Shown: piece by piece, positions 6,768 to 61,558 of the stretch | Layout: each line of letters starts with the position of its first letter | Position numbering within the stretch: position 1 is the stretch's first letter | Source of the DNA: Enchytraeus crypticus | Lineage: Eukaryota > Annelida > Clitellata > Enchytraeida > Enchytraeidae | Assembly: GCA_905160935.1 (NCBI GenBank) | Contig: CAJHZI010000741.1 | Location: forward strand, 322,501-386,500 | Direction: 5' to 3' | Length of the DNA: 64,000 bases | Translations under genes and position numbers: made by a program | The notes under the pieces: model-generated | The model's database searches: none | Told to the model about the DNA's origin: nothing | Seen by the model: only the letters and a program-made list of their open reading frames with translations

Positions 6768-9700
6768 TTAATTGGCAAATATTTCCCCCATAGGTATCCA
6801 AACATTTTTCACTTGTGTCGAGTGATACAGAAACTCCTCCCCCTGACCTTGAAGAGGATCTGCCCAGTCACGTGACTGCCCATAGTTGACCCAAGTGCGC
6901 TTAACGTTCTCAGCCGATGTGTACTCAATGAACCTTGACCCCTGAGAAGTACCGAAGTACCAGACGGCCTGAACGTCCTGATGCTCGACGAGAGTGCGTG
7001 CTAGATGATCTCTCTCACCCGTGATGATGTTAACCACGCCCCCGGGCAGGTCTGACGTGTCAAATACCTGAACAATCAATCAGTCAGTCAAATCATAGTA
7101 CCTCCAAGATCAATCAATCAGTCAAATCAAAATACCTAAAAAATCAATCAATCAGTCAAATCATAATACCTCAAAAATTAATCAATCAGTCAAATCGTAA
7201 TACCTCAAAAATCAATCAATCAGTCAAATCATAATACCTCAAAAATCAATTAATCAGTCAAATCGTGATACCTCAAAAACCAATCAATCAGTCAAATCAT
7301 AGTCTTTGAGGAGTTTAGTTTAATGCGTTAAAAAGAGAGTTAAATTAATTAACCATTAATTAATTAACTGTTAATTAATTGTTTGAATCACATATTACAA
7401 ATTGTGCATTGTGTGCTTAGGTATCTGTTCTATGTAATGCAAGAACTGGTTTTAAATTGCATCAATCAATCCATCAGTCACACAATCAATTAATAAAGCG
7501 TGAGTCCTAAATGGTTGCAGTCATCGATGATGACCGCTAGCTTTGATTAACACACAAAGAGCTTTGATTAACACACAAAGAGCTTTGATTACAAAGAGCT
7601 TTGATTAACACACAAAGAGCTTTGATTAACACACAAAGAGCTTTGATTAACACACAAAGAGCTTTGATTAACACACAAAGAGCTTTGATTAACACACAAA
7701 GAGCTTTGATTAACACACAAAGAGCTTTGATTAACACACAAAGAGCTTTGATTAACACACAAAGAGCTTTGATTAACACACAAAGAGCTTTGATTAACAC
7801 ACAAAGAGCTTTGATTAACATACAAAGATCTTTGATTAACATAAAAAGAGCTTTGACTAACATACAAAGATCTTTGATTAACATAAAAAGAGCTTTGACT
7901 AACATACAAAGATCTTTGATTAACATAAAAAGAGCTTTGAGTAACATACAAAGATCTTTGATTAACATAAAAAGAATTTTTATTTGTATGTTAATCAGTC
8001 AATTCCTACAAACATCCATATAGAAATCAATCACAATGGTCAACAGTGACTTTTCATCAACTTGAAGAAATAAATATGAAAAATAAACAAACTTGAAAAC
8101 ATAAATAAACATAAATAAACTTGGCCATCGATGATGACCGCTACAGAGCTACAAGAGTTTTTTTAAAAACTCTTACCTGATAGAGATCCAAGGCAAGTAG
8201 CGGGTGTTTTTCGCTGGGAATGATGACAACGCAGTTGGATCTGACAATGGCGGGAGCAAGGAGCGAGACGAAGCTGAGCAGAGGTGACTCATCGGGGCAG
8301 GCTATTCCTACCACACCCAGCGGCTCGTGGATCTTAACTGTGGCGCCGTACAGCGTCGTCTCCTGATACATAGAAATACATTGTAATACATCACTCACAT
8401 CACCTGATACACATCACCTGATACATAGAAATACATTATAATACATTATAATACATCACTCACACCACCTGATACATAGAAATACATTATAATACATCAC
8501 TCACATCACCTGATACATAGAAATACATTATAATACATCACTCACATCACCTGATACATAGAAATACATTATAATACATCACTCACATCACCTGATACAT
8601 GAAAATGATACATGACACATGATACATGATAAATACGTTATAATACATCACTCACACCACCTGATACATAGAAATATATTATAATACATCACTCACATCA
8701 CCTGATACATAGAAATACATTAAAATACATCACTTACATCACCTGATACATAGAAATACATTATAATACATCACTCACATCACCTGATACATAGAAATAC
8801 ATTACAATACATCACACTAGGAAACAGATAGATTTATTTATACCGAAAAATTCACAATATGACAAAGAAATCAATTTCCTACAAATGGAAAATAATAACT
8901 AATAAAAAGTCATAAAATTATTTATTTTACACAAAAATTCACAATATGATAATGTAAATAATAAATTTTTTGGACATTAAAAATATGCTTTATAAAAAAT
9001 AAATATAAATTATAACTTATTATCGATATCATCAGTACTAAAATAACCACATGTTAAACTCTGAGATTCAGCACTATATTAAGCAAGGAGATCTACATGC
9101 AGTTCTACTAAGAAAGAACAAGTGTTCTACTGAAGCCCCGTAAAATAATAGATTTAATGTGATGTAATTAGGTATAATAATGTAAAATTTAATGCAAGCC
9201 ACAAATACTACTCATTACATTTGATAACCTGCCTACAGTATGAGGAACTTTCAGTTTTAGAATCATAGAACTAGCATATACGATCCAGTCATATTAACAC
9301 CATGGGTTTAACCCGTTCCAAGTTGGTTAACCTTTCTTATTTAACATTTAGGCCTTTTTATTAAAAATAACCATAGGTATCATTAAACTATGACACTCCC
9401 AGCAACAGAGTTCAAGCCGGCTGGTTACAAATTTATGATAAAGAATACTGACTTGAGACATCTGGTTAACATCTGGTTACTTTAACATCTGGTTACTTTA
9501 ACATCTGGTTAACATCTGGTTACTTTAACATCTGGTTACTTTAACATCTGGTTACTTTAACATCTGGTTACTTTAACATCTTTAACATTACTTTAGTAAA
9601 GTAACCACATGTTAAAGTAACCACTTTAACATGTGATTACTTTAGTAAGATTCTACGATTTAGTGCAATATTTACAGCATTTAAAATAGAAACGATAATA

Positions 9701-12700
9701 TTATTGGTGACACATTTCTATTATACTATAGACATGCTATTTTAATTTCATAAATTCCTGTGGCAATATTAGGAGACGACGCTATAAGGTGTCGCATTTA
9801 AGCCATATTAGACCAATAGAATAATATCAAACTAATAATTACAATAATTAAAATTATTATATTGATGTAATCATATAACCACTAACCTGCACGCCGCCAC
9901 CGTATTTATCAGCATAAGCTCCCCAGTGGAATAGCCTACAGATAGATAGCTCCACCTCCTGCCTAGCGCTAGCCAATGAGCTGCCAGTCATATCTGCCAA
10001 CCTACCAGCAAACTCCTCCTTTCTCACTTCCAGGTTCTCGGCCATATAGTAAACTATCTGAGCACGATTATGAGCAGCACGCTTGCTCCATCTGTCAAAA
10101 TTAAAACAATAAGATCAATAACTAATAGTAAAGGCAACTAAAAGTGAAATTCAATCCCGTTTCTTATGCAATGTAGACAAAAGAAGTTTCCTGCATGATA
10201 TTATTCTCTCACTGTCTTGTACATACCGACTAAATCGTCTGGAAAATTCTACAACCCCGAAAACAGCGAAGACTTAAAAGCCTTACAGCGAGGCAATGAT
10301 CCCAGAATATTTTTGATACGAAATAGCAAAAGTAAAATAAAAGAGTCAATATTGTCAAGTCAAAGGAAACAACTAAAATAACTGGCAGTGATTAACATAA
10401 CGAAAATTGATTGATATAAAAAAAAAAGAAGAAATATATAAACTTCTTGAACTTGCTACCCTGTAGGCGCATCGACCAAATATTACACAATTACAGGTAT
10501 TCTATTTTTCTCCCAATCAATGCACTGACTAGTGGCAGATTCACGAAATACATCTCTACATATACTTATCCCCTGTTTTTCATATTCATACCGGAATGTG
10601 CTATACAATCATAAGATGAAGAAAAGAAATATTCCAAGATTTTACAGAGCCTTTGCATTCATTATAGCCTTAGAGTGCATAAAATCACGCTTAACATGCC
10701 AATATGATACGTACAGTAGTACATATGTTTATTTAGAAATTCATCAAACACTGACAAATAATTGTGAAACAGATAAATCAGCAGACAAAAGTGAGAATCA
10801 ACATATGTAGCATCAAACAGAAACTAAAATTTGCTCATCACGGCCATCAGAGAGGGTACTGAAATACCCTATCGAGCTGACCACCGCAGTAAACAAAGAA
10901 GAAGGAAATCGAAGAAACACTAGTTTTGTCTAAAACATGACAACAGTAATATGTTACGTTTATGTCACTAGGATTGTAAATAGATTACCCAAAATAATAT
11001 ATGACACGATTATCTAATATATATCAGATTTTAAATAGTAATTCAATAATTACCAAGATTCCATAAGAAAAAGTCTGTATGACACCTTAAAAGAATTAAA
11101 AGAGTTTAAGTTGCGAATTGCAATAGGTATAGCATTCCATATTGAGCATCCTTCAAATACATTAGATGAGAAGTTAGAACGATTCGTAGATAATTGGATA
11201 CCGAAAGCCTAGTCTGATAGCCGCTATTTAAAAGATTAGATATAAACATATCCTTTATAACTTTAGACATGAATCCTTTGTGATATAAGCACTTATAAAT
11301 CATATTGGCAGTCATAGACTTATACAACAGATGTATCGGCAAGGTACTGTAGTTCTCATAAAGGAGCTTGATTTTATATCGTCTGTCTTGAACCTGGAGA
11401 ATCCTAAGGGCTCTATTATTCGCTACATGCAGAGGATGAAGTGCTTTTTCCGAATTATTTCCATAAATTATAAGGCCGTATGAAATTCTACTGAACACCA
11501 AAGAAAAATATAAATTTTTACGACATATTGCAGGCAATAGCTCTCTGCGTCTGTATAACATACTACAGATGCTATTGATTTTAGAGGTTATACATTTGAT
11601 ATGTTCACAAAAAGTTAAATTATCATCAATATTTACACCAAGAAACTTAACCAGTTTAATTCTTGACAGAGCATTTCCATTAACAGTAACAGAAAGGCTA
11701 TTAGCTAATATATAATCCTCATTACATTCGGATGGGTAGAAGAGCATGTGGACAGATTTGGAGCAGTTAATAGTTAGTTTATTAGCCTTACTCCATTCGC
11801 TAATTGGCATACATTCAATGTTAGCCTTTTTGTAGAGGTATGTTAGATTATTGGCATTAACAAAAGTATTTGAATCATCTGCAAATAATTTGCGACATCC
11901 TCCAATAGAGGCATTTTGAATATCATTATTATATAGTAAAAATAAGATAGGACCCAAGATTGATCCTTGGGGTACACCAATTTTCATCAGAAAACAGTAG
12001 ATTTAACACTATCAACGACAACATATTGGGAACGGTCTGAAAGATGATTTAAACCAAGTATGAGTAATACCGCGTATCCCATAATGCCAAAGTTTATTGA
12101 GTAAAATACTGTGATTGACTGTGTCGAATGCTTTTGTAAAATCAAAGAATAGCCCCATAACCAAGTTCTTATTAGCCTTTTCTATACGTATCACATTGAC
12201 ACAACTATAGAGTGCATCGATCGTTGAATGACCCGGTCTAAATCTAAATTGATTTTCATGCAAAATTTCATTTTTATCTAGAAAACCAACTAATTTCTTG
12301 TACATAATTTTTTCGAACACCTTACTGAAATTGCTCAAAAGGGAAATTGGTCTGTAATTTTCTTTTTTATCAGGACTTCCATTTTTGTGTATTGGGATAA
12401 CTTTTGCGATTTTAAAATTGATACTGCATCTAGTCACCCACCCAGCCGAAGCATTGTGAGCTGCGGCGACAGCATTTCTGATATCTTTTCTGTTACCATC
12501 ACCGACATGACCTATGACCTTTCCAGTAGGATCAGTGATAGCACGAGAGTACTGGCCATCAGGTCTCTGTTGAGCTCCTCCATAGTACAGCTTGTAGGTG
12601 CGATCAATTCTAAGTCATACATAATACAGCTTGTAGGTACGATCAATTCTAAGTCATACATAGTACAGCTTGTAGGTGCGATCAATTCTAAGTCATACAA

Positions 12701-15700
12701 TTTTTAATTTCTTAAAAAATAAAATAAAACTCTTTAATGCTTAAAAAACCGTAAAATATAGTACACTGCTAGTGGAATCATCGAAGGATTTCGTTAATAA
12801 ATATAGTCAATGTGAATTATACTACAACGCATCATAGGTTGGAAATTCGTAAATCTTGGTTAGATAAGTAGTTAAATTATCATTGACTAAAATTCTAATT
12901 AAAGATAAATTCATTTGTGGCAATGAAGAGGAAAACTGCAGCGAGAAGAGTAGATGCGTTATATGGCATGGACCTGCCAGTGGGAAGTGAACTAAGAGAA
13001 GAGAGGTCACAACATGAAAAACAACCGGTATAGGATAAAAAAAGAAAATTCTCAAGTAATGTTGTAGTTTGTTTGAGATCTCCAATTAATAGATAAGTAT
13101 TACGTAGCTTACCCCACGATTGATTGAGAGCTGTCAGTCTGAATAACCAAGCCCTCCAGAGGGGCTGTTGGCCTGCCAGGAAGACTACTGCCAAAACGTT
13201 TCAGTTCATCGGCCAATTGCGCAGCAGCAGGGGCGGGAATGTATTTAGACTCCTCCCATTTAGGGCGAACATACTCGAACAGACCCTATAATTATAATGT
13301 AAGAATGAACCAAACAATTAAATATAATCAATAGTAGTATCTTTGTATTAACCTTTAGTATACAACTATAATATCTATGATATTATTGTTATTATACAGT
13401 CTGAACAGTTACTATTAATTACAATACCTCACAGAAACTAAGTTTTTTAACTTTTCAGTTTATTTTAAACTTAATATGCTACTAAGAACTATTGTGTTAT
13501 TTGTACGTATATTTGAACAGAGATAAAAATTTAAAAGAATCCGTCCAAAAATAGTAGAAATATTGCAGTAAACAAATATTAAAATAAACAAATGCTAGAC
13601 AAGAATATTATTGTTATTATTGTTTCAATTTATTAAATAAAGAAGTAATTTTTATAATAGTAAAATATCATGACTTCAGCAAGGTTAATTATAAAAAGTC
13701 ACATAGAAGTTCTAATGACACAGACCACCTACCTCTTTGCCGCCATCTCTTCCAAACCCGCTCTGCTTGTAGCCGCCAAATCCCGCCGCCGAGTCGAACA
13801 GGTTGTGGCTGTTGACCCACACGGTGCCGGCTTTGATCTTTAGCGCCACCTCCAGAGCCAAACTTACGTTCTCTGTCCACACACTGGCACCCAGACCAAA
13901 CTTGGTATTGTTCGCCAGCTCAATGGCTTCCTTGGCTGTTCGGAATGGAAGAACTACCGCCACGGGACCAAATATCTGTAGAGCATTAAGCATCGATCAA
14001 AGTTATTAACATAACATAACATAACCGCACACTGGGTCAGGAAGCACAGATGCTTGTTTAAGGCCTATTTCCTCTTTTCTCTCAACGGTTATTAGTAATC
14101 GTTGCCTTTTGATTGCGCATCAATTGCAACCAGCACGAATTTAAGAATAACCTTCCATCACCTTGAGAATGGAATTCAGAGGATGGAAATATTCAGAGGA
14201 TGGAAAAGTTAGCTAGAAAATAATAACAATAATAATAATAACAATAAAGGTTTAACGTCTGCTTCCTCATACAAGGGTGATGTCAGGTACGTCAAAGAAA
14301 AGATTAGGCAATTACAGAATAGCTTCAGTGGTTGTTCTGAACTGAAAGGCTAGGTAGTTGCTAGAAGAATCGCATGCAGTGAGTTCTTGTCAGTCATCAT
14401 AATTAGAATTAATAATCATCATCATCATAGTTAAGCCCAGATATACCAAGTCATTCAGATTCGTTCATCGATATACCTATCTATTAAGCAAAACGCCTTA
14501 AAATATTTCGACTGGAACTAACTGACAACTTAGGGATACAATTTGCCAGGCAGCTTACAGAAACAACTAAACTGACAACTTGGGGATACAGCTTACTTGA
14601 CAACTTAGAGATACAACTTACCTGAAAACTTAGAGATGCAACCCATCTGACAACTTAGAGATATAACGAACAGAAGTTTTAAAGATATAACTTGACTGAC
14701 AACTTAGAGATACAAGCTCTACCTGAAAAAAATTATGAAGACAATTCGTGATGAGAAACAATATAATATTAAAACCAAGCTTGGCTGTTTCACCCTAACG
14801 TTGTAGTGCCGTAAAAGATTAATGGTTAATGAGCTGAGAAAATTCAGCAGAATCCTTAGCTGAGAGAATTCAGTAGAATCCTTCGCTGAGAGAATTCAGT
14901 AGAATCCTTCGCTGAGAGAATTCAGTAGAATCCTTCGCTGAAAGAATTCAGCAGAAGACTTAACTGAGAGAATTCAGTAGAATACTTAACTGAGAGAATT
15001 CAGCAGAATCGGCCTAACTGCGAGAAATAGTAGTACATCGTGAAATAAACACAAACTGTCACAAGCACATACACTTACCTCTTCAGTGACAACTTTAGAC
15101 ACAGTTTGAACTCCAGTTATGAGCGTAGGAGGATAGAATAAAGGAGATTTCTCCACGTCTCCTGCTTTATTGACGCATGCCTGATATACCTGTACACAGA
15201 GTTACAATAAACGATAATACAAGAGTTACAATCGTAACAATTTCTGAAGCCTAGGCGCTCAACAACCGAATGCCCTTCCCGACGTTGGTTTGGATTCAAT
15301 TTTTATATCGCCTTCTACGACATGTGCATATTTACACGGTTGGTCTATTCTTCAAGCAACCCGGACACAACACGGGGAGATTACATTAATTAAGCCAAAC
15401 AAAAAAATAATAATTTAAGGAACAGAATTGAATTTTAAGATTTACATTAACCAGAATTTAATTTTGAATCAAACTACAAATCTAGATCCGCAAAAATATT
15501 TGTCATTGCAAACTTCTGATAAGTTCTAAGTGCCTCTGTAATTATTTAAAAAAGGAATTTTAGAAGAATCATTTGCGTTGTTTTATATATAACTGGCTGC
15601 AACTAGCTCGCTTTATGTGTATAGATTCAATATAGTAAAAGAAATTCTTTTACTGGACAATATGGCTCCTCCACTTATGACTTCATTCTTACAAAAATGA

Positions 15701-18700
15701 AATATCAGTAAATAAATGACAAAAGAAAATTGTAAAAAGCTCAATAATAAATCCACAAACTCTTAGTCTCATTGCTGTCAATTTCGTCGTTCATACTATT
15801 ATTTATTCATCACCATCTTCCATCGAATCCTAGCTCAACTAGGGTCGGAATTAGATTAAGATTCATTAATTTCTTAAATATCCATGCAGTAACTTATCAG
15901 ATTAAAGGAAGTGGGAGAAACATTTAAAGGAAGTGGGAGAAGATGAAGGAGAACTACCTCAGCGCCCTCACTGCGAGCAGACTGGACCAGAGCATCCACA
16001 CTGCTCCACTGGGAGGCGTCCACGAGAGGTCCCATGTCGATGTCCTTCTCCAGGCTTCCACCCAACTGTAGATGAGTCATTCGCTCCTTCACGCGTCTCA
16101 CAAACTCCGCCATGATTGTCTCCTGAACCAATAGTCGTGACCCAGCGCTGCACACCTACATAAACACACACAATAGTCGTGACACAGCGCTGCACACCTA
16201 CATAAACACACACAACAGTCGAGACCCAGCGCTGCACACCTACATAAACACACACAATAGTCGGACCCAGCGCTGCACACCTACATAAACACACACAATA
16301 GTCGTGACCAAGCACTGCACACCTACATACACACAAACAACAGTCGAGACCTAGCGCTGCACACCTACATAAACATACACAGTTTTTTTCTTCTCTCTCT
16401 ATTTCTCTCTTTCTTTGTTTCTCTCTCTCTCTCTCTCTGTCTCTTTCTACCTCTCTCTCTACCCTATCTCTCTCTCTATCTCTCCCTCTCTCTCTCTCTC
16501 TATCTCTGATATTCTGACAAGAGTCAGGGTACACAGTCTGCCTGTGCAATATGAAAGAACACAAGCTGATGCAGTCGGGAAGGCACACCCGTTGGCCTAT
16601 CCAAAGAGTAAATTCGAGTTTGAGACACACTCATATAAGTGGCTTTCCTTTTCTGAATCAGCATTTAGAAAAGGTGAAAGGTTTAATTTCGTTTTATTCA
16701 ACAATTTCTCGACTCAAACAATTTATTTGCACTTGTAATTATAATGGATTTACCAAAAAGGAATCAAGAGTGTATATTTAGAACACTGAAGGTAAATTTT
16801 TGAGATAGGGAGAAGAGAACAGAGACTGCATTAATTATAATTATAGATTACTATGAGTTCATTCTGGTGCACGAATTACTTCTAAAATGTTAACATAAAT
16901 ATGGTAATACCACATTACTCTAAAAACTACTAAATCAGCAGATAAAACTAAATTCTCTAAAAATACAAAATGTATTTTACTTTCCTATTCACATATTTCC
17001 TTTTTATTTTTTCTTCAAAACTTAATGTCAGTCAGAAATTGTTATATGTCATGTCATCAGATAGTATTAATTGTTTAGGTTAAAGAAATGTCCTGTTGAT
17101 AAATTACAGAGATATAAATACTGATTAATTGCAATGAAGACACTAAGGGAGAAGACAGCATGTAGTATGTTCAAGAAACCTGTCCCTGATTGAACCAAAT
17201 AGCGTCCACCACTCCCTCCACCGTACTGTCCAGATCAGTCGTGTCAAACACCACCACCGGTGACTTACCTCCAAGCTCTAGAGACAGCTTCTTACCAGTG
17301 CCAGCTGTCTCTCTACGCAACACCTGCCCTATCTAAATATATAGACACAAACACATACATACATACATACATATACATACACACAATACGCAAGCACATA
17401 TATGTACATGAAAGAACATACATATAAAATGATGTAAATATACATCAAGCTACTTAACATCTAGTGCAAGTGAGCGCTTCCTTAGAGAAGCATCCAGGTT
17501 AAGATGTGATTAAAAAAACAGTGGTTCTCAAACGAACAATTGATTTTGTTACCAAATAATTTGTTACCAAATAATTACTAATAACTATAAAATCATTCAA
17601 AAGTCATGGCAAAGAATCAGCGATTACGTCAGAAAAAATACTAAAATGAGCAACATCTATTTCAGACCAACCTCAGTGGATCCAGTAAAGGCAACCTTAT
17701 TAATGAGTTTGTGATTGGCCAGCAGACTGCCAATAGAACCAGGACCTGTCACCACGTTGAACACGCCAGCAGGAAGCCCCGCCTCCGCACATATCTCAGC
17801 GAATAGAAGTGCAGAGAGACGCGTGTAGGTGGCAGGCTTGAGCACGACCGTGTTGCCCATGGCTAGGGCTGGGCAGACCTTCCATGCCAGCAGCATCAGT
17901 GGAAAGTTCCATGGAACTATCGCCCCCACGACACCTGTCGAATGAAATAAATATATAAGAATTTAACATTCGGTTCCTCGCCATAAGGCAATGTCAAATA
18001 GAATCAACAGTCTATTAGAAAATATCAGAAAACTTATGAGTTACAGTTTAAAAGCACAAGATTGTTTAACTTTCACTTTATCTTCTGACGATGATATCAA
18101 GAAAGTTTCAGAAAACAATTGGCATCAGTTCATCCACACAAAGTATGATCGCACAAGTAGATGGTAAGAGAAATTAGGAGTTAGACAAGCATGATGCAAG
18201 TCCACCTACCTTACATAATCCATTAAAAGCGTGGGCACTTAAGAAACATAAATCAGGCTGTGCTAAACTTAAAATTTAGTAGTCAATCAACCAATAAATC
18301 TACCAAAACAATGTAATAGAAACAGTGCAATAGAACAGTGTTTGCAATAGAAATAATGAAATTATAAAACTTAAAAAAGAAATATTTGTAATAGAAACAA
18401 TGTAATAGAAACTGTGTTTGTCAGTACGTCAACAGTAGCTTGTCATTATATTTTTTGTATGATTGTGACATGCAAATATTTGAACCACACTGTACAAAAT
18501 AAATGACATCATGCATAGTCACAGAATTATTTGAATGCTATCGGGTTTCTTAATTTCTAGAACTACAGATCAACATTTAATCCATCTGTAAATGACTCAA
18601 TGAAAGTAGCTAAGTAGAAAGCATGTAAACATTTAAAAAACAAATTTTTACACAATTTATGATGAATAAATAATAAAACCTTTACCATTTAATGATAGAC

Positions 18701-22292: not shown

Positions 22293-22416
22293 TACAGATA
22301 ACTACTCCAACTCAGGATCAGTATGCTGAAACTGTCAAAACAGAAATTATTAACTAATAATTTAGTGAAACATAGAAGACAGCCTGTAAAGTAGCAAATG
22401 TTCACACACATTTTTC

Positions 22417-22465
<49 letters not shown>

Positions 22466-25264: not shown

Positions 25265-25470
25265 GTACAGGCAAGGTATAGGTAAACACGCATTGTTGTG
25301 AAATGATCAACTATGTTGGTGTCTATCACTTTTAATACCGCATGCATAAACCGTTAGGCAATTTAGACCATTTTCCGTAGTTGAACGATGGCTCAATTCA
25401 CCTTAGGATCTGTTATTTAAAAGTTCATGACGCTAACCCTACGCTATTAAGACATTCTATTAGGCCTACT
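25265..25470 (-). repeat. tRNA-derived SINE (family 2), internally deleted
   Basis: Shares 'gaaatgatcaactatgtt', 'ctatcacttttaatacc', 'gttaggcaatttagacc' and the A-box end (minus strand TTAATAGCGTAGGGTTAGCG) with the full copy at 39940-40163. The part with the B box is missing. Confidence 0.7.
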
Positions 25471-25544
25471 CTTCTCTCTCTTGCTGTGACTATCATCGAG
25501 AGGACAAGGAACTGCTATGCGAAAAGATTCATTTAGCAAACAAC

Positions 25545-25945
25545 ACCAAGAAACTCAAAAGTGTAATTCCGACTAATTCGCCGTGAATTACCACAGCATC
25601 GCAGCTCTGACAGCTGGACGGAAAAGACTAGTTGGACTGACAAAATTGCACATGAAGAAGTTCTTGAAAGAGTCGGTACAGATAGACAATTAATGAATAT
25701 GATAAGAAATAGAAAGAAAAGCAGGATAGGACATAGTAGAAAGGGGATGGTTTGCTGAATGAAGTGATAGAAGGAAGAATGCAAGGGAAAAGAGTTAGAG
25801 GAAGACTGAGACATGGGATGCTGGATGATCTGATAACAAACTCATATAGAGAGATGAAAAGGAAGGCTGAGGATAGAAGGGTTGGAAGAGCTATATGCCA
25901 TGGTCCTGCCGCTAGGGAGTGCACTAGAAGAAGAACTTCAAATCT
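25545..25945 (+). mobile_element. RT-element ORF C-terminus and 3' end
   Basis: Plus-strand translation with frame breaks gives an SWTDKIAHEEVLERVGTDRQ-like stretch, then LLNEVIEGRMQGKRVRGRLR and [19 protein letters not shown], ending with the conserved 'ccatggtcctgccgctaggg' end. This is the C-terminus of the YGCETWTL-type RT family. It is truncated at its 5' end and frameshifted. Confidence 0.7.
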
Positions 25946-27085
25946 AAAACAACTATAAAATGGTTTCCGTTATCTCTTACTTCAGATTTAGTTTATATGT
26001 TTTACTTTATCAAGGGAAATGGGCATATACAGATGCAGTACGTCGATTGTTTGAGTAGGCACCACAAGTGACTTACTTTAATAATAAAACATACATTACT
26101 AACGGGTACCAATAAATGACAATAAACATATTGAATTTCATTACGCAGTTATGCTTGATTAGCAGAATGTTGAAAATAAAAGGAAATAAAATGCATAAGC
26201 ACTAAATTGATCACTAAATATGGCGAAATGTTCACCAAGGCGGTGATGCACAAATATATATGTACTAGATGTAACCGTGTGCAAAAATGAACAAATCTAG
26301 GAAAAATGGCCAATTTTAACTGAACCTGGCCTTAGAACCTTAAGCTCTTAATCCTAAAACGAATGTTCTACCAATGTAACATACGTCTCTCAAGAAACCA
26401 ATATCTGAAAATTTATTACAAATGAAGAAGGTGATTTTGTTAGGAATTATAAATATAAAGCTGCGCGTAAATTGATACTTGCCAGATCACAGCGCTGTAA
26501 CAAGCATTACTTCGGACAGACAGAACTGATCCATTATATTTATAATATAACCTCAAACAGTGTTTGCAACCCATCCAAGTATACAAGATAGAGACACATT
26601 AATTTAATACTTCGTTTTGGAGGTGGAGAACTTAGAAGTTAAAAGTACAGTTCTCTATAATTCTGGAATTAAATTTGGCTGGCGGGCAGAGTGGAGGCAA
26701 CATCCATTCGTCTTGAACGTGACAAACACGGTTAACTTACGGGTGAATCAGGAATGCCAGTACAAAAAAGTTTGTCAGAGACTTCGGAGAAAAAGATAAG
26801 TATTGCATAAATCGGTGATAAATATTCTTAAATATGAAAGATTAATTTTCAAAATAGTATGATAATTATATATAATCAAAGTTAATGGTGTTACATTATA
26901 AAGGTGTGTTACAATAGGTACAGCCATAATTAATAGTCTAATTAAACGTTGGTTATGACACTTTAAATAATAACTATGATGAAGATACATAGAGAATATC
27001 AATCTACGAAATGATAACGATGATAACGAAGAAGATGAAGATAATTACTATCATCATTATCATCATGACAATCCGCAGAGATTAC

Positions 27086-49400: not shown

Positions 49401-50704
49401 TTAATCAATTTGTATACACTTATGTGAAACTTCTTTTGCGTTTTGAATATATTAAAATGCATAGGAAGTGATTTTGCCATTAACGAACAGGACACCTAAA
49501 GCAGGCAAACTTCTAGTTCGTAATAGCTCAGTTAAATTGATTAGGTTATAGTTGCTTCTTAATTGCTTAAACTTATTTATGTAATTTCTGCACTTATATT
49601 GTTTGTTATGTCCTACTGCATGTGTCATTATTTTTCTTTGTGTGCATGTGTTTTTGTGTTTGGCTATGTGTACTTGTCTATGTTTGTAGTTTGAATGTAG
49701 GCTAGTGTTAGTATGTAAATCCTATCTCGAGAGCTAATCTTTCTTTCTGTTAATGCAATGCCTACTGGCAGGTCCATGGAATTGAAAGCCTTCACTCTTC
49801 TCTATCTTCTGCTTTCAAGAGCTAATGTCATGGAGTTAATGTGCACTCACTGGCTATCATTGTTCTCGAAGCACAGCTATTTTAGTGTAGCTATGCTACT
49901 TTCTAGTTTAGTCTAGGTGCTATATAGTAATAATAATAGTAGTAGTAGTAGTAATAATGATAATAATAATAACAATAATGATAGAAATATGTGGAGGAGT
50001 TATATGCCATATATCTACGAATAAGCAGTACATTCACAGAGAGAGGCCAGCTAATCACAGAGCAAACCGCCAATAGGCGTCAGATTTTCTTTCTCTTAAA
50101 ATCTTGTCTGTGACCTTGCAAAGGTTCAATGCTATTTGCTTCAGCAGTTATTTTCAACTGCAAGGTCTTCAGTAGCAAGGCAGCGCTTCGACATATCTTG
50201 CTAAACTTATTTCTAATAAACGCTGTACTTTTTGCACCTGGGTTAAAAAAGTAATTGATAAAATTATAAGAATAATGATAATGATGACAATAATATTGCT
50301 GCTGCTACTAATAATAATAATAGGGTCTAGAGTCTACTGATTTAAGAAAATTTTTATGAAACAGATACGACTAGGTTCGCACAATTTTAGCAAAATTTTA
50401 GAGAAATTTAGCAATAATTTCATGAGTTAACTGAAGTTTTAATTCATTAAAACTTTTTATTTTTAGAATTTTTAATCTTTTAGACTAATTAAATCAATTG
50501 AGTCGTCTATCTAATACTTTGTGCCGTTATTATCATGCATTGTAAATTTTTATTGTATTTTGTGTAGTTTAATCGAAACATGTAAGTGCCATTGTTGGCC
50601 TTTGTTTTTCCGTTCACGCATACACTTGATAGTTTTGCACGCAAGAATTGACACGTATAATTACATGTATGATGTGATAAATGAAATAAATAAATAAATA
50701 AATA

Positions 50705-50739
<35 letters not shown>

Positions 50740-53700
50740 TAATAATATTTATAATATAATAATATAATTATAAGTACTTGCTAAACAATCTGTTGATCTC
50801 ATTGAAACTTCTTTCCATTTGTAAAGATTGTCTATCAACCTGCTAGGATTTAATGGAGCGTGCTTTCACAGCTTAGTTAAACGAGACAATCTTGAGTAGC
50901 CTGGCTGTGGTTCAACCCTTTCTTTCTATTTTTAATCTCTTCCATCGAGTCCCACGGCCGTTACAGGATAGGTTTTTTATTTTACAATGTAAAATGTTAT
51001 AATTTAAAAATAATAATAACAATGTAAGGGCATTCTATGAAAGCGTAATGTTTTTTATTTGAATGAAGGTTATTAGGGTAGCAATTATTTTATGAAATTG
51101 GGGGTTCTTTTTTCATATTTTAAGTTTGAAACTTCGGATCAGATAAGATGCGGGATTCAGATCCTCTGTTCACTTCTTTGCTTACTTGTATTCAATAATT
51201 TAAACAGACACTAAATTATATCATTGAGCCTTTTATATATTATAATTATTATATCTTACTGTATGCTGCATAACACTGGATTATTATTTGTTGTAGTCCA
51301 GACAATTGGTTGTTCTATAAAGAATATCTGAGATGTGCAGTTGAGTGCATACAGCCTAAGGACGACAGGTACTTTTGTCTTATCTTCTTTTTGGAATGTG
51401 CTGAATGTACATAGGCTCTCACGTGCAAATGGCACGAAGTCAATTTTTATTAATTTTAGTTTATTGCAGTCGTAATTACTTTCTTTAACAAAAATAAATA
51501 TGCACATGCAATGGTAATTTGTCATTCACTGAATTAATTATGTAGTATATTTCTAATTAAATAAAATTTTTATGTTAAATATTAATTGGTTGTTTGATTT
51601 ATTTACTTGTACTGGATATATTAAAGCCAAAGACAAGCCGCCAATATACTTAAAGCTATCTTTAACTTTTTGTAGTTATTGCAGTAGTTATGTCAATTAA
51701 TGGAGCGTTTTTGTATACTAAGTTATTAAAGGTGTGTACTATACAAATTTGAATCAGTAGACCTAATGTGTGCTTCAAGGACTTTTTTGATTTTATTAAG
51801 AGTTTCTTTATCTATGGGTAGAAAGGCTACAGCTGAGATTTATCTCAGTTTCCTGACTGAAAAGTATGCCAATGATGAGGCGAGTACTGAATTTGAACCT
51901 TGAACCTACTTCGTTGAAGTTGAAAACCTAGCCGATCTTGTTACTTGATGTTTAGCTCGTTAAACTGATTGATTGGCTCGCAGCACTGCGGCCACTGACG
52001 CAGTTTCTTTGTCGACTGTGGTGGAGTTTTTGAAGAGTCAATTGGCAGCATCGTCAGAGGCTAGCTATCCACTGCGCGGACCCTACCTGGCTCAGCTTGA
52101 ACTCATCAGGGTTTTAAAACAACATGGCAACTCTACTTGGTCGACGTTACTAGGTTTGATTGACATTCACTCTAATATATATTCTGCATAGTAGATTTAA
52201 TATGAATATTGTATTCATTTTATACATGAGGTGATCAATGTCCTAATTAATGAGGTGATCAATTACCCGACTATAGCTAAAAACTGGGATTGAGGGAAAG
52301 ATGAATCTGATTATATTCATTTTATACAATATTATTACAATCTTAAATAATTATTTGATTGTAATAATATTGTATAAAATGAACTTATATAAAATATAAT
52401 GATTCGATCACATCAATATCATAGTTATGATAATTATGGGTTCGAGCAGTACTCCATAGTGGGTCTGACGAAGACAGTAAAAGAAACCTTTAAAAGCTCT
52501 AGCAGGAATTTCATACCTGGACTTAAAACAATTAAGAATCTTTAAACTTAGAACAATTAAGAACCTTTGGACTTCAAACAATTAAGAATCTTTGAACTTA
52601 AAACAATTAAGAATAATGGAAGCTTTTCCAAATGATAGAGACGATTGGATTACCTCTAATAGTAAGTGTGTCTCTTTGTGGCATTATGATTGCTTACTAA
52701 TTCTTAATCAAAATTCATCTTCTCGTCAATAATTTCGGTTGCTTGAAATTATGAGTTTCTTAATCTAAAGAATGAAACAAGTTACTCTAATTTTATATGA
52801 GCATAATTAATTGTATTTTTCTTGATCAACTCAGACGCATAGTTATTAATCGATTAACTGATTTATCTCTAGAAACTTTCTAGAGGTGATCTTTTTTTAG
52901 ATAATTTGCTAGCAAAGTGGCACCAAATTTTGACTGACTAATTTAGTGATTGTTGAATTGATTTATTTATAAATTGATTGCTGATTAATTATTGATATAT
53001 ATTTATAGGCAGTCCATTAGATCTGTTGGGTCAGTATTGTGAGAAGTTTGGCAGCAAGGCCTGTTGCTTTGCTGATATCTATGAGTTTATACAGCTTCTA
53101 GAGAGCGATCAACTCAATAAGGTATCAAATAATAAACAAGAATCTAATATCTGACTTCCAATACAAAATAAACTGACCTTTACAGTAACAACATTGAACT
53201 CCTAAGTTATTGTTTAGCATCCATTTCCACATCTTCTCTTCCTAATCAAACTTGTGTCACTTTCAGATTTATGCTATTTTTTTATAGTCTTGCCTCAGGA
53301 TGAGAGTTTTTTTATTCACTTTTGTTTTAACTGTGCTGCTAAGACGGTTGAGAGTATATTGTGTAGAATGATTTCACGGATTTTGATTGCACTCACACGC
53401 TTACAGCAATTCACTCTTGACACATTTCATCAGTTATATCATGATGGACAATTGGAAATGAAACATATGTAATGGAAAAGTTTTGAATATAAATTTTAAT
53501 TTTTTGAGCTTATATTTATACATTCACCTTATATTTATAAATTCACCTTGATTCATCTAAGCGCTCTAATTAATGTACAAGTTGGTGAAGCTATCCCATA
53601 ATGCATTAAATGCACTGCAGTGGAGGTTGATCAGTTTGTTGTGAAGCATTTCTATGGGAAGTTTCTAATTAAATTCCGTTGGTGCATAATGATATTACTG

Positions 53701-56638
53701 GACCTAGTAGATGTGTGGAGGGCAACAGCATCATAGCTGACCTTCTCAATTTCCATAAAATAACTAATCACTTTAGTGTACATTATCTTAAAAAAATGTC
53801 TTACTGTTCAATCATCATCTGTAGCACTTTGATATATTTGATCTCATTTCTGTCTATTCTGCTTCGTAGGGCTTAGAATTAGATCATCATCATCATCCTC
53901 CCTTGAATCTCAGTTTAACCAGAATTACATAATTTTGTATATTTATATGGCTGGCTGATTGGTTGATGAATGCGGGATGACTATAATTGATGTGCATATG
54001 CGTCGTATAATTTTGCTACGATTGTTGGCACATTGACAGGATTTTTACTTTGATTAGTTAACGTATCATGTATTTTTTGTGCACCAGTGGGTTAGTGACA
54101 TGTCAGCCAAAGTCAGTCTTAGGAACCCAGATGATACCATTGTCTTTCCTGAAGATGTATGTAACACATTTTCTACATCTTTTTATGCGAGATTAGTTTA
54201 TTAATTATTTATTGATTAGTTACTGATGTTGTTTTAGAAATTTACTTACAACAAACATTATCTAATGTCAGTTTTCTATGTGACAGTGAAATTATGTGGA
54301 ATACCGTACGGTACTGTAGCTTTGATGTTAAGACCGTATACATGTCGTAATGTGGTAAAGTAAAGTAAATACGTATTATAGTGAAATGATCTTTGTTGAT
54401 ATCAATCACTTTTAATACCACATGTTTAAACCGTTAGCAATTTAGACCATTTTCTTTTATTATCTTGGTGTCGTTAGTGAATCAATATGTTACTTGCTGA
54501 GGATGGTAATTGTATTGCGAAAGCTCAAGTGAGATTAAAAATTTATTTCTCAGTGTTACATTCCTTTTGCAATATACTTCAATTTTATTGAAAATTAACG
54601 CAATGAACTACATGCACAGCAAAATGTACTTCTAATAAACTATCATGCTTAGCGAGTCATCAGCAGACGAACTTGACTGACTGATTGACTGATGATTGAA
54701 TGATGGACTGACTGATTGATTGAGTGACTGACTGATTGATTGAATGTTTGACTGATTGATTGAGTGACTGACTGATTGATTGAATAACTGACTGATTGAT
54801 AGATGGACTGACTGATTGATTGAATGATGGACTGATTGATTGAGTGACTGACTGATTGATTGAATAACTGACTGATTGATAGATGGACTGACTGATTGAT
54901 TGAATGATGGACTGATTGATTGAGTGACTGACTGACTGATTGATTGATGGACTGACTGATTAATGGACTGACTGACTGATTGACTAATTGATTGATTGAT
55001 TGGTTGACCGACTGATTGATTGATTGATAGATTGGAGGCGCACAGCGTCATATCCTCTCTGTGCAGCTCTCTCGCTATGCAGGACAACACGCTGGGTTGA
55101 GCCTGAAGGAAACACTTAGTCTGGTCAATGAGCTCTTACAAAGATACAGAGATGGACTGAGATTTGGTATGTTAGTCACACTGTGGTATTGCGTCTAAGT
55201 CAAATATCTCTCTCTTAGTGCACTGCCTACTGGCAGGTCCATGGTATATAACGCCTCCACTCTTCTCTGTCTTCCGCCGTCCTCTTCATTTCCACATATG
55301 AGTGGGTCTTTAAATCATGTAACATACCTAATCTCGGCTTACCTCTGCCTCTATTTCCTTCCATTCTGCCTTCTTTGACCTCTTTTAGTAGACCTTTCCC
55401 CCTTAGAATGTGTCCTATTAATTAGAATGTGTTTATATTAATTGTTATTGCACCAAATTCACATAGATTGATGGTTATTGCAACTAAGTCACATACACTG
55501 ATGGTTATTGGACCTAAGTCACATATGTTGATGGCTATTGCTCCTAATTCACATGCATGCATGGTTTGAATCTTTGAACTGCTGCTACTGGTGATTCAGA
55601 TTTACACTAAAGAAAATAAAGCCTTTTTTCGCTTGACAGGTGTAGTTATGTTGTTTTTTGCTACCACTTACTAAGGTAGATCTATGATTTTGTTTATATG
55701 CCTACTGTATATAGGTCTAATTGAAATTTACTGATAGATGAACAGGTCTTGTGCTGTCTTTTTGTTTGTAATATTGTATTATAATATTTTCAACGTATAC
55801 AGTTGCTGATATATCTAAAACAAGCACAGTTTTAAATTGGATTTTGCAGATGGATTCTCTTGTTATATTATGTGTGTGTTTCATAGTGTAGTACTGTGTT
55901 GTGTTATGCAGGTGCTGGTATATCTAAGACAAGCATACAGTTGGTAGATTGGAATATACAGATGGCCGTTCATCTACTGCATGATCTCTATCAAACTAAC
56001 CGACAATCTGATGGCAAGTGTCGTAACTTTAATTATTTAAATTCCATTTTGTTCATCTGAAGTCAACGAGGTAGGAATTGGTTATTGATTATAATTATCT
56101 TAAACCTCGTACATTCATAGATTTAATGACATCAGTTGATTTACTTTCGCATATTTGAAATAATGTTGATAGAGGATGATGATGATGGTGAAGATGATGA
56201 TGGTTGAAATAATGTTGTTAGATGATGGTGATGATGGTAAGCTTGGTAATGGCAGTGATGATAATATTGTTGGCAGTGGTGATTGGTGGTAGTGGCAAGT
56301 TTTATTTCCCTTTGATTAATTTAGTAGTTTTGTTGTTTAACTGTTATATTGATTGATTGAAAATTGATTAATTTATTGATTGTAGGTTGGCAGTATTTGT
56401 TTTCGGCGGTAACTCTGCTAGAGGACGCTCTGAGCAGAAGCCCGTCTAATGCTCAGCTCACTCTGCTGCTCACAAAACTCTACACTGAGTTAGGGGCTGC
56501 TGATGCTTGCCGCGTGACATATGAAACCATGGACGTCAAACATATACAACACGACTCAATGGGGTAGGATATCTTAGCCTTTCTGTGTTCTCTAGACTTG
56601 CAGATCTCTCTCTCTTTCATTCATTCTCTCCCCCCTCT

Positions 56639-56685
<47 letters not shown>

Positions 56686-57071
56686 CTACTAGTAAGTGAT
56701 ACGTCGATATGGGTTAGTGCATTAGGTATTACACATTGATTGGTTGTAACGCATTCACATGTTTATATATGGGTTATGATGCATTCACACGTTTATATAT
56801 TATCCTAATTTTTCTATTTGATTGAATTAATTTTAATTAACGATCTATGACTTAAAACGTTACAATCTTTTTGTTTCAGCTGGGTCATATTTAACCCGCT
56901 GTTGAGGTTTGGTCACTTATCATCTGCTAATACTCATTTAGATAACATGCTACAGTTCTTCAGTGGTGTTCGCAAAGAGGTCAGTTTGATGCATTATTTT
57001 ATTTGCTATATAGTACGGTTAAGAGTACTACTTGTAATGTAGATTTGTGACGCTTTTGAAAGTATAGTTTG

Positions 57072-57120
<49 letters not shown>

Positions 57121-59269
57121 CCTCTCTCTCTCTCTCCCTCTCTCTCTCTCTCCCTCTCTCTCTCTCTGTCTCTGCTTGGTCATAGATATTCATATCATGT
57201 TGTGCTTTCATGCTCCTGAAAGAGCAGTCCATTTCCCTTTGCCTTCCTGAGCTTTTGATATGTCGCCTCCTAAGGCACTTGCAGCTTTACGGTTTGTATA
57301 TCCTTCAGTTGCCCAGTGACAACAAGGAAATTACAGTTATGGGTATTAGATGAAAATCACAAGACAATTCCCCTTTCTTTCTTAACAGCGTAAGAACGTA
57401 AATGGCCGTACTGTTGCTAATGAAAAACTGTATAAAGGTAAAGGTATTGATACCTTTTGAAATGTGACATCCTGTTGCCTGACATCTACCTCCTATTTGT
57501 CAAAATAGTGTTTTTAGCTAGTGCTTGTAAGCTGTAACTTTTATTCCTAGTTTCTTTTCTTTGAAGTTCGTATGAATTGTTGTTTATTATGTGCGCTGTT
57601 ATATGGATGTGAAACATGGACCTTGAGGAAGGAAGATACGAGGAAACTGGAAGCGTTAGAAAAGATTAGCTGGACCCAAAATGCAACAAATGAAGAAGTT
57701 CTGGAGAGATTTAGTACAGATAGACAGTTGATAAATGCATTAAGAAATAGAAAGAAGAGCTGAATAAAACACATTCTAAGGGTGGAAAGTTTATTGAAGG
57801 AGGTCAGAGAATGTAAAATGGCAGGAAAAGAAGCAGATGCAGATCGAGATTAGAAATGTTAGATGATTTAAAGATTCACTCATATGTGGACATGAAGAGG
57901 AAAACAGAAGACAGAGAAGAGTGGAGGTGTTATATGCCTTGGACCTGCCTGTAGGCAGTGTATTAGGAGAGATAGAGAGACGTCTGTTTATTTACTGAGC
58001 TTCCTGTAGCTAATTATGATAGGTATTGCCTTGGATCTTGGACTTGCACTGTTTTGAACTCGCTTTCTCTTGTTGTCTCTGTGTACTCAGTCGTCATTGT
58101 GTGGTGCTTTGGCGCCTGTTTGTGTAGAATCTGCAAGAGACGTCCCTGACATTGCCTTATGGCGAGGAACCGGACGTTAAACTCTTATTGATTGATTGAT
58201 TGATATTTGTTGATTGATGTTTCAGACGTGCGACTATCTCATAAATGCCTACAAATTCGGTTCATTTCCTAAGGTAAGCCACTATGCTGCTTTGTTGAGT
58301 ATTTTCAGTTATATACTTATCGTCTACAATATATCTATCCAACTGATTTGGTAACCAATCGCTTATATATAATTCTTTCTATAAAACATGACAAAATATT
58401 CTATTGCACGAACAAAAGGCAAAATTAGAACTGGTAAGTTGCTATCTGATTAAATTCAATATTATGGTACTGTTAATTGATTGATATTTAACTGGCTGAT
58501 GGAATGACAGATCGATTGATAAATTGACTGATATATATTTGATGGACTGTTTGTTGAAGATCAAGGAGTTTATCAACTTCAAAGATCGTTTGGAGAATTC
58601 TATGCAGTTTGCTTGTGCCACCACTGAGAAGCTAATACTGGACGTTATATCGGAACCCAATAAGTGAGTGAAAGAATAGAATTAATTGTTATTTTTAATT
58701 ACTCTTGTTAGTAGCAGTATTTAATTAATTATTATTAGATTTAAAGTTAGATATAAATATAAGATTAAAAATGATTAACATTAGTACATTAGTTACTAAA
58801 ATTATTCTATAAAAGTGCCTGGCTTAATATATGGTAAAATTAAGTATCAGCTATGAAAATCATCAGGTATAAAGTGGTAACAATAAAAATGTAATAAGTA
58901 GCTGCGTGGCCTATTGCATCAGTTGATTGGCTAAGTTGATACCATGCTTATCTGATGTTAGAAGGCTTTCAGGTCTTATCATAGCCAGACCGACTCTGAC
59001 AATGTCATTGTGATGGCGATACGTACAAACTAAGCTTTAACAGTATCTGTTGATCGTGCCTTTCAATTTTACTAAAAAAATCATTTTAATCAAATGTTAT
59101 AAAGATCTATTTAAATTAATAGATTATTTTAACTTTTTTCTTACTTGATCATGCTAATCACTTTAACTGTTATGTCTCTTTTCACAAAGTGGACATTGTG
59201 ATATATTCATGTGCCATTAATATATTAAAATAATTATATCAGCACTGGGAATTGTGATGTATATTGTCC

Positions 59270-59303
<34 letters not shown>

Positions 59304-61526
59304 TGCTCTCATATATGTTATGTGGCAGGTCCAATTTACTTAGTTCTATTCATTTTCAGCTTTCATGCTACATAAGAGAACTCCATCGATCAACTCACTT
59401 TCATCAATCTTCTCCATCTGTTTGGTTAATCCTGTTACAATTATATTTGGCTTATCTGTGCTTGTAACTTGGAATTGTGTGACCACCGAGGTGGTTTCTC
59501 GTTTTCTTCCTAAGTTCTTGCTCAGTAGCCTCTTCAATAGCATATGCTGTTTATGTATAGTCTATTATTGAGTGGCTCGAATTAGACATGAATGATATAA
59601 TGTAGTGTTCATATTGTAGCTGTTGTTGTGTCACAGTTGTTATTGTTGTTGTATCAGTCACAGTGCCACAGTTAACGAGGTGGTCAGAACTTCTATTAAC
59701 CTGTTGTTGTTGTTGTTGTTGTATCAGTCACAGTGTCACAGTTAACGAAGTGATCAACTCTTCTATTAACCTGTTGTTGTTGTTGTATCAGTCACAGTGC
59801 CACAGTTAACGAAGTGATCAACTCTTCTATTAACCTGTTGTTGTTGTTGTTGTTATTGTTGTTGTATCAGTCACAGTGCCACAGTTAACGAGGTGGTCAG
59901 CACTTCTATTAACCTGTTGTTGTGTATCAGTCACAGTGCTACAGTTAACGAAGTGATCAACTCTTCTATTAACCCAGCTCTGGAGAAGATCAACGTTGAG
60001 CTGCTCTCTGATAACAGAGACCTAGACGTCGCCTTCTGCTGGGATCCTCAGTTCAGGTATTGACTTCTGTTTTTTGTCATAAGACTTTACTGACTAACTT
60101 TTTTTTTTGTCTGTCAAGCTGATTTACAATGCATTTGATTTTTATAAATTTGTGTGTTTTTTGATGATTAATATTACGTTACGGTGACTTGATATATGAC
60201 TGCTTGCAAAGCTACATTAGTAATATTTTCATTCTGATTATACTAAACATTGCCCAATGAAACATTTAAACCAAGGCTGTACGCCAGTTTTCCTTTGCGT
60301 CAGTGCTTTCTCTTGTTACAGTAACTTTATTGTCATCATTTTATTTTACATGTTATCTATCTATCATGACTGATAGAGATCACTCAACGTATGAAATTCG
60401 ACATAGTTTCTTTATCTTTCAAAGGATTAAATTACAGTAAACAATTCTACATAGTTTCTTTATCTTTCAAAGGATTAAATTACAGTAAACCATCTTATCT
60501 GTCTGACCTGTTTTCAATCTATAAATCTTCGCGTTGTAATCACTCCTCCAGTAAAAATCTACTTACTGTACCGGACACTAGATCTGCCATTGGCAGATGC
60601 TACTTCAAGTTTTCTGCTCCATCATTATGGAATTCTCGATCACAATATCTTCAATATTCTATTGTATTAGCACTTTCCTGGGCAATCTAAGAACCCATCT
60701 CTTTCCGCCAATAGTCGGTATTCTGACTCTCTTTTCATTCTCGCTTTCTGTTGTGGTCTTTGTAGTTAAGTTGTCATCGTTTTGTGCGTTTGAGTATGTT
60801 GATGCTGAGTCTGCTTGAGACGTCCCTGGCATTGCCTTATGGTGAGTGACCAGATGGTAAATTCTTATTGATTGATTGGTTGACTATAATTTATGTTTTG
60901 GAATATGTAAACGAATTTAGGAAAACTTTTCGGTTCTCTTGCTCCATCTAAGTCAATCATCAGTGACCTTCTTTCTAGTTTATGTTTCTATTGAAAGTTA
61001 TGTGAAGAGGGTAATTTCTACAGAGCGTGTTGGTGCCTTGAGGCCTTTATGTCTTGTATCATATTCTCTGAGTCAAATGTATTCAGTGTTGGATTATTCT
61101 TATTTTCGTGATCGCTATTCTCTTTCTATTCTGTTCTATCTTAAATTTAATGAGGGTCTTGTTCAACATACTTGTTTATAAAAACTATGTAAACTTATTC
61201 GTTTTACAGGCAAATTATTGAAGACTTCAAGCAGAAATCGTATAAAGAAGAGGTATTTATTTTTATATATTATTCTCATACTTTTCTTTTTGTTTAACAA
61301 TAATATATTTATTTTACAATAGTGTTGACAACGTGGCAGTTTAGAATTTTTTACATGACAATTATTTTTAGCTAACATTTTCTATTGAATTTTATGTTAA
61401 ATCTTCTGTTTATTAAAAGCTTATTAAAGTTTTAGTTGCAGATCTAGCATATCTTATTATATCAACAAGGATTGCGTCAGCATTAATATTATTAAAAAGT
61501 GACACTAGGTTAACTTTTATATGCAG

Positions 61527-61558
<32 letters not shown>

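Follow-up and report, generated by a model that had tools for sequence, protein, structure and literature searches.

Minisatellites that span splice junctions, named 'mirages', have been described in lancelets, in the Adh3, globin (BflGb6, BflGb9), TnC and PGBD5 genes, and at both intron boundaries (PMC3087553, PMC3902484). Splicing of the lancelet mirages is reported to be undisturbed, with RT-PCR support, and mirages have been proposed as a source of intron gain (PMC3087553). Variable tandem repeats at exon-intron boundaries are also reported for human segmental-duplication genes and are linked there to new introns, with 162 alignments before manual inspection and 27 intron modifications after it (PMC2812944). 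Two further systems are related in part: intron gain by tandem duplication of proto-splice sites, with cases in Drosophila (PMC2891723), and the tandem arrays with mean monomers of ~180 bp in intron 1 of earthworm metallothionein (PMC12783039).

The arrays reported here come from one stretch of DNA of 64,000 nucleotides (the window) and from a sample of other introns of the same genome. As far as the cited descriptions go, they resemble the lancelet mirages in the units of tens to ~160 bp, composed of an intron end and an exon start or the reverse (PMC3087553, PMC3902484), in the retention of AG or GT in many copies, in the intact authentic exon adjoining the array, and in the use of either boundary (here both in the sample, and acceptors alone in the window). 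In lancelets the copy number varies among haplotypes; here the presence of copies varies among paralogs. The differences concern the host, whose ALDH16A1 groups with annelids and which so represents another phylum (a lancelet host is not part of the definition), the rate, measured here over 134 introns, and the size of one array, with ~33 copies. Normal splicing was seen by RT-PCR in lancelets, whereas here the splice choice is read from reading frames alone.

The human repeats share the variability and the location at exon-intron boundaries, but in the account given they belong to recent paralogs, many are exonic, and the transcript is altered, whereas here the additional copies are intronic and leave the exon as it was (PMC2812944). 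Proto-splice-site duplication likewise copies splice-site motifs; in contrast to it, the introns here are pre-existing and a new intron is not among the findings. The earthworm arrays are also tandem units in annelid introns, but no splice-site capture appears in the part of their description consulted (PMC12783039). A sequence-only reading of the window had taken repeated acceptor capture for an undescribed trait, which the earlier lancelet and human reports contradict. We consider it likely that the arrays are minisatellites of the mirage type, i.e. non-coding tandem duplications arising genome-wide, some of which straddle exon edges and are nearly silent. They would extend the mirage type to another phylum, in which such arrays are frequent and probably near-neutral.

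Genes of the window and host lineage

ALDH16A1 (6768..22292, minus strand) has 14 exons and an intact frame of 853 aa. The gene model at 27286..35533 (minus strand) has 9 exons and an intact frame of 453 aa; its product is an RNFT-like RING protein, for which the analysis itself shows a RING domain only, the name RNFT coming from the sequence-only reading. NAA25 (40443..63848, plus strand) has its first 20 exons inside the window, and its frame is open throughout after a 4 bp shift of the exon 19 donor. The intact models of the three genes give 40 introns, instead of the ~41 counted previously, and these form the window set. Scans of the window for Rfam families (gathering threshold) and for tRNAs gave no match.

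In the ALDH16A1 tree, built from 47 hand-picked rows of 120 listed homologs, the window protein clusters with the Capitella and Helobdella sequences (97/93, 100/99). The NAA25 tree (31 hand-picked proteins) places it outside the clade of Branchiostoma, other deuterostomes and arthropods (93/99), and is unresolved inside the lophotrochozoans. A lancelet origin of the sequence was rejected on the basis of both trees.

Acceptor arrays in the window

Junction copies were identified by gapped local alignment spanning the junction, at p ≤ 0.01 against 100 shuffles each. The earlier ungapped test (acceptors 7/40, donors 0/40 in the window) overlooked copies with indels, e.g., at NAA25 exon 17, and the gapped test is therefore relied on. 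By this test, 11 of the 40 window acceptors have a nearby junction copy and none of the 40 donors does (Fisher p = 0.0004). All nine acceptor captures named in the sequence-only reading (ALDH16A1 exons 7, 11, 13 and 14, RNFT exons 5 and 9, NAA25 exons 4, 6 and 17) are recovered in the upstream intron, with unit lengths and a longest-array size in agreement with Tandem Repeats Finder (TRF), and its statement that the three genes have no donor array also holds. NAA25 exons 11 and 12 pass the gapped test in addition.

In ALDH16A1 the arrays lie on the minus strand. The exon 14 array (7063..7301, junction 7068/7067; TRF and gapped alignment) has a unit of 34 bp in ~7 copies, with 5 bp of exon within the TRF interval, and the exon 13 array (8362..8815, junction 8363/8362; TRF) a unit of 41 bp in ~10 copies, with 1 bp of exon. 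Larger portions of exon are taken in at exon 11 (12581..12699, junction 12610/12609; unit 39 bp, 3 copies, 29 bp of exon; TRF) and at exon 7 (16129..16381, junction 16156/16155; unit 42 bp, 6 copies, 27 bp of exon; TRF); in both of these the unit is in frame and contains a stop. The RNFT exon 9 array (27378..27682, minus strand, junction 27418/27417; unit 64 bp, ~5 copies; TRF) includes 40 bp of the RING-finger exon. At RNFT exon 5 (30420..30506, minus strand, junction 30450/30449) gapped alignments show a single diverged two-copy duplication, with the copy at 30468-30506, which is absent from the TRF output.

The NAA25 arrays are on the plus strand. At exon 4 (45763..46126, junction 46114/46115; TRF) the unit is 37 bp, with ~10 copies and 12 bp of exon. 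The longest array, at exon 6 (47916..49122, junction 49121/49122), consists of 32.7 copies of 34 bp according to TRF, plus shorter variants (~33 copies); the TRF intervals stop at 49082 and the final copy reaches the junction. At exon 11 a TTGA-rich array with a unit of 20/80 bp (54674..55031, junction 55030/55031) extends up to the acceptor, and the best copy in gapped alignment is TTGA-type sequence without the AG. In gapped alignments the start of exon 12 (55796..55965) has a degenerate copy at 55796-55853, which precedes the functional acceptor (55911/55912) by ~110 bp. The exon 17 array (59636..59974, junction 59930/59931) has units of ~60-79 bp in ~5 copies, with 44 bp of exon. As a contrast, the intronic TRF array at 43231..43619 (plus strand), with nearly identical copies of 44 bp, ends 14 bp before the exon 2 acceptor and was not accepted as a capture.

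Arrays such as the one of ~33 copies are difficult to assemble, and it was judged from the assembly alone, which would favour an assembly or sequencing artefact. The copies, however, vary in sequence and length, the functional copy is undamaged and its frame open, and the pattern is repeated on many contigs; an artefact is thus extremely improbable, and assembly error was rejected as the main cause.

Six of the 28 TRF arrays in window introns span an acceptor, where 1.3 are expected from the unit lengths (p = 0.0015; 0.001-0.003 across the TRF settings tried), and random exon-avoiding placement of 34 arrays gave means of 0.35-1.4 acceptor captures against the 6 observed. Acceptor capture in the window therefore exceeds random placement by the unit-length null and the placement test alike, and this counts against the reading of mirage-type arrays formed all over the non-coding DNA. 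Copies in the exon interiors of the window number 16/1546.

Splice junctions outside the window

The wider sample, chosen blind to repeats, comprises 94 introns from two gene families only, the dyneins and the myosins. They derive from the 170 exons contained in the stretches retrieved; two exons were not joined by an intron when they belonged to different families, when their profile coordinates ran in the wrong order or were >14 positions apart, or when <30 bp separated them. Acceptors are copied in 17/94 and donors in 12/94 (gapped test, p = 0.42), the introns being partly non-independent because the dynein genes C199 and C109 are near duplicates with one common captured acceptor. The ungapped test gave 14/94 and 11/94, respectively, and the raw profile edges of the 170 exons 30 left and 20 right. 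Among 70 TRF arrays, 8 span an acceptor and 7 a donor, with ~3.9 expected for each; the numbers are ~2 times the unit-length expectation at both sites (p = 0.04 for acceptors and 0.09 for donors; 0.03-0.11 and 0.09-0.20 across TRF settings), so pure chance may not fully explain them. Plain donor arrays are seen in C440 (69 bp), C131 (70 bp) and C410 (41 bp, ~6 copies). The last of these belongs to a myosin gene.

Mock junctions placed 100 bp inside the introns are copied in 10/38 (window) and 24/86 (sample) on the acceptor side, and in 2/38 and 20/86 on the donor side; at 200 bp the values are 6/30 and 17/66, and 2/30 and 14/66, respectively. In the sample the mock junctions match or exceed the real ones, and the introns are therefore rich in local tandem duplications, both splice sites included. 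The copy profiles fall across both junctions, reaching 0-5% at ~40 bp into the exons. In the sample there is thus no enrichment of acceptors over donors or mock sites, an outcome that the sequence-only reading had named as refuting its proposal. A high rate of junction-spanning arrays in unrelated genes does characterize the lineage, as had been proposed; the part of that proposal that restricted the process to acceptors is not supported, and an acceptor-only process was rejected as a genome trait, since sample donors are captured nearly as often.

With the window and sample pooled, acceptors are copied in 28/134 and donors in 12/134 (p = 0.0095, a value that includes the window which prompted the question), so that a weaker acceptor excess remains, driven by the window. 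Copies of high identity (≥ 87%) number 12 at acceptors and 2 at donors of 134, and sense TTGA tracts occur in the last 60 nt of 18/120 introns versus the first 60 nt of 2/120. These figures, together with the window asymmetry, speak for a process in which duplication, or its retention, prefers intron 3' ends, e.g., by a branch-point-rich, repeat-prone last 100 bp that seeds slippage, or by better tolerance of extra acceptors than of extra donors. The near equality of acceptors and donors in the sample, by gapped test and TRF, speaks against it, and we regard such a bias as unlikely.

In total, 40 of 268 sampled splice junctions (~1 in 7) have copies. In the literature found, earlier mirage reports proceeded gene by gene and in lancelets; at this frequency in an annelid-like genome the phenomenon is no chordate oddity, and its rate is now given. 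A broader claim, that the lineage generates or retains tandem duplications preferentially at splice junctions, mostly acceptors, with decoys at roughly 10-25% of exon edges, is rather doubtful. If true, exon definition would have to be strong for series of decoys of full strength to be passed over, and new introns and exons would keep emerging from the arrays.

For paralogous genes (15 intron pairs), 12 junctions are copied in one or both of the two paralogs, 10 of these in one only; this is turnover, not allelic variation. When the assembly was searched with 4.1 kb of NAA25 for a second haplotype of its arrays, the matches listed were dispersed repeats and a single similar array, with no second full-length copy among them.

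Proposed origin of the arrays

As mirage-type minisatellites, the arrays would start from short tandem duplications arising throughout the non-coding DNA of the genome, the first duplication being probably due to slippage or repair. A duplicated unit straddling an exon edge would carry the splice site, together with a bit of exon, over to the intron side, where the array could afterwards expand and contract. The duplications would persist because they are nearly silent, with the spliceosome using the copy adjoining the intact exon. The last acceptor or the first donor would be picked, most likely via exon definition, while mis-spliced products, frame-shifted or stopped, would be degraded. Duplications within exons would be purged.

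Upstream copies as splice sites

The frames were analyzed for 70 ungapped upstream copies, so that 8 of the 11 captured acceptors are represented. The authentic exons beside the arrays are intact, with all three window genes open-framed, and the outer copies are non-coding. The AG is preserved in 55 of the 70 copies, as would be expected if the copies were functional sites, selected as back-up acceptors or for recursive splicing. A junction with an exon beginning with GT could serve as a ratchet point in recursive splicing, and 3 of the 11 captured exons start in this way (ALDH16A1 exons 7 and 14, NAA25 exon 12); the other 8 do not. Selection for such sites, suggested in the sequence-only reading, is nevertheless highly improbable: 24 upstream acceptors are in frame and all 24 run into a stop, so that none of the 70 gives an open frame into the exon, the AG letters are little better preserved than their neighbours (124/140 vs 1305/1540), and arrays of the same kind are present at donors. 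The reading frames suggest instead that the exon-proximal copy is used.

Each array is thus a natural test of splice-site choice, with similar decoys in a row, of which the frames examined permit only the one touching the exon. The arrays separate exon definition, where the site nearest the exon wins, from intron definition, where the shortest intron wins, and make the proposal that they seed new introns testable. At ALDH16A1 exon 13 the functional acceptor is outscored by 8 of the 9 upstream copies.

Acceptor arrays in the window

The tandem arrays that the sequence-only reading had reported at nine acceptors (ALDH16A1 exons 7, 11, 13 and 14, RNFT-like exons 5 and 9, and NAA25 exons 4, 6 and 17) are real, and the observation was a true and striking one. 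All nine pass a gapped test in which the alignment is required to cross the junction, and TRF also reports the arrays, apart from the diverged two-copy duplication at RNFT-like exon 5. Upstream junction copies are found by the gapped test at 11 of the 40 window acceptors, the two additional ones being NAA25 exon 12 and NAA25 exon 11 (the latter with a copy lacking the AG), and at 0/40 donors, so that the reported absence of donor arrays also holds here. The stricter ungapped test gives 7 acceptors and 0 donors. The array preceding NAA25 exon 2 ends 14 bp before the acceptor. Six of the 28 window arrays span an acceptor vs 1.3 expected under a null adjusted for unit length (p = 0.0015); when arrays are placed at random outside exons, the means range from 0.35 to 1.4 vs the 6 observed.

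The array unit consists of the intron end, the AG and 1 to over 40 bases of the exon. The copy-by-copy anatomy covers the 8 acceptors reached by the ungapped search, with 70 upstream copies. The AG is intact in 55 of these, its letters being little better kept than the others (124/140 vs 1305/1540). In-frame copies number 24/70, and a stop is met in all 24. Nine of the 70 outscore the functional acceptor, eight belonging to ALDH16A1 exon 13; therefore, strength is not always the mark of the right site, and position beside the exon is. A stretch elsewhere in the assembly (G000:C483:443459-443799) resembles the NAA25 exon 6 array, with 75% identity over about 340 bp.

Junction copies outside the window

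The assembly (524 Mb, 802 contigs) was searched with profiles for dynein heavy chain and myosin exons, chosen blind to repeats, and 232 kb fetched around them defined a sample of 94 introns. These introns are only partly independent of one another, coming from two gene families and including a near-duplicate pair of dynein genes (contigs C199 and C109). Junction copies occur at 17/94 acceptors vs 12/94 donors (gapped test, Fisher p = 0.42), or at 14 and 11, respectively, in the ungapped test. The TRF arrays of the sample (n = 70) include 8 acceptor-spanning and 7 donor-spanning ones, with about 3.9 expected for each; both junction types are thus ~twofold above the unit-length expectation (p = 0.04 for acceptors, 0.03–0.11 over settings, and 0.09 for donors, 0.09–0.20). 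Part of this excess may arise because a conserved exon copy keeps old duplications recognisable for longer. Plain donor arrays are seen on contig C440 (69-bp unit), in a myosin gene on C131 (70-bp unit) and in another on C410 (41-bp unit, about six copies), the last drawn from a single-exon set outside the 94 introns. An intron-poor dynein heavy chain gene was also noted (G000:C178:628153-639147), whose domain matches lie in open frames of 1052, 1225 and 1177 aa; the other matches sit in much shorter frames.

Mock junctions 100 bp inside introns are copied at 10/38 (window) and 24/86 (sample) on the acceptor side and at 2/38 and 20/86 on the donor side. At 200 bp the values are 6/30 and 17/66 (acceptor side) and 2/30 and 14/66 (donor side), while 45 bp inside exons they are 2/40 and 6/94, and 0/40 and 3/94. 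The copy profiles show an intronic plateau and a decay across both junctions. Thus, the copying rate at junctions is about that of the neighbouring intron or lower, with exons protected; acceptors of the sample are not enriched over donors or intronic sites. The proposal of a lineage-specific process making acceptor satellites keeps its first half, a special lineage, and loses its second, since donors are copied too.

Acceptor bias

A moderate acceptor bias in array capture may nevertheless exist. The window is strongly asymmetric (p = 0.0004), pooling all 134 introns gives 28 acceptors vs 12 donors (p = 0.0095), and among copies of at least 87% identity the pooled counts are 12 vs 2 (within the sample, 8 vs 2, p = 0.11); these three excesses therefore leave room for such a bias, against which stands the sample, with no significant acceptor excess. 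Donors differ between window and sample (p = 0.018), acceptors show no clear difference (p = 0.25), and the donor sides of window introns are repeat-poor altogether, which may be local chance.

In introns of 360 nt or more, a sense (TTGA)n tract lies within the last 60 nt in 18/120 and an antisense one in 0/120; the first 60 nt hold 2/120 and 1/120, respectively. Such tracts occur, for example, in dynein introns and in those preceding NAA25 exons 11, 13 and 15. Each TTGA unit fits a branch-point consensus. By eye, some tracts resemble the 3' tail of a dispersed retroelement.

Turnover, origin and known counterparts

In 15 paralogous intron pairs, 12 junctions are copied in at least one paralog, 10 of them in one paralog only. 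The arrays come and go; the exons persist. Most likely, small tandem duplications arise frequently and would be silent if the unit is intronic or straddles an exon edge, and harmful within exons; arrays would then grow and shrink on the intron side. Exon definition predicts choice of the exon-proximal copy (the last site in acceptor arrays, the first in donor arrays), whereas a shortest-intron rule predicts the opposite; choice by exon definition is the more likely here.

The arrays are of the type called mirages in lancelets (minisatellites spanning intron-exon boundaries), here in a new phylum and with a measured rate, and are neither acceptor-specific nor, as had been supposed, undescribed. 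Lancelet mirages are described in the Adh3, globin, TnC and PGBD5 genes, at either boundary (PMC3087553, PMC3902484), with PGBD5 and TnC covered by the second of these papers. Human genes in segmental duplications are reported to carry tandem repeats at exon-intron boundaries (PMC2812944). Earthworm metallothionein has minisatellites in intron 1 but, unlike the arrays here, the available part of that report mentions no splice-site capture (PMC12783039). Among the matches listed from CC-licensed literature (titles and abstract beginnings), none reports mirages by name outside lancelets.

Gene models and other features of the window

The spliced models were hand-built from splice signals and reading frames and verified through translation. 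On the minus strand, ALDH16A1 has 14 exons coding for 853 aa and the RNFT-like RING protein has 9 exons coding for 453 aa; on the plus strand, 20 exons of NAA25 fall inside the window. All three frames are open, and the models contain 40 introns in total. Homologs cover most of the length of ALDH16A1 and NAA25, and solved structures also confirm both; in the RNFT-like gene the RING domain alone is supported, the label RNFT coming from the sequence-only reading. Three of the 40 introns start with GC, not GT (ALDH16A1 exon 1, 22140, minus strand; NAA25 exons 4 and 12, 46311 and 56013, plus strand), a share above the ~1% typical of animals.

The best named ALDH16A1 matches listed are molluscs and annelids (70–72% identity); one further protein reaches 74%, and Branchiostoma has 67%. 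A tree built from 47 hand-picked rows places ALDH16A1 with Capitella (97/93) and, within this group, with Helobdella and two further proteins (100/99); Owenia, another annelid, is placed elsewhere. NAA25 falls outside a clade of Branchiostoma, other deuterostomes and arthropods (93/99), its tree giving no resolved position within lophotrochozoans. The genome is probably an annelid's, a reading based on the ALDH16A1 tree, with the NAA25 tree excluding only a lancelet.

ARAGORN finds no tRNA in the window. In ALDH16A1 intron 11 (10900-12440, minus strand), open frames resemble, by eye, a non-LTR retrotransposon reverse transcriptase. A partial small gene of family UPF0449 lies at 1462-2700 (minus strand), with a 15-bp-unit tandem array downstream (1052-1267, TRF). 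A dispersed repeat of ~120 bp at about 45637-45761, seen by eye also near 20430, 21900, 44150 and 44690, was found by one search in at least about 40 places in the assembly, with 74–94% identity.
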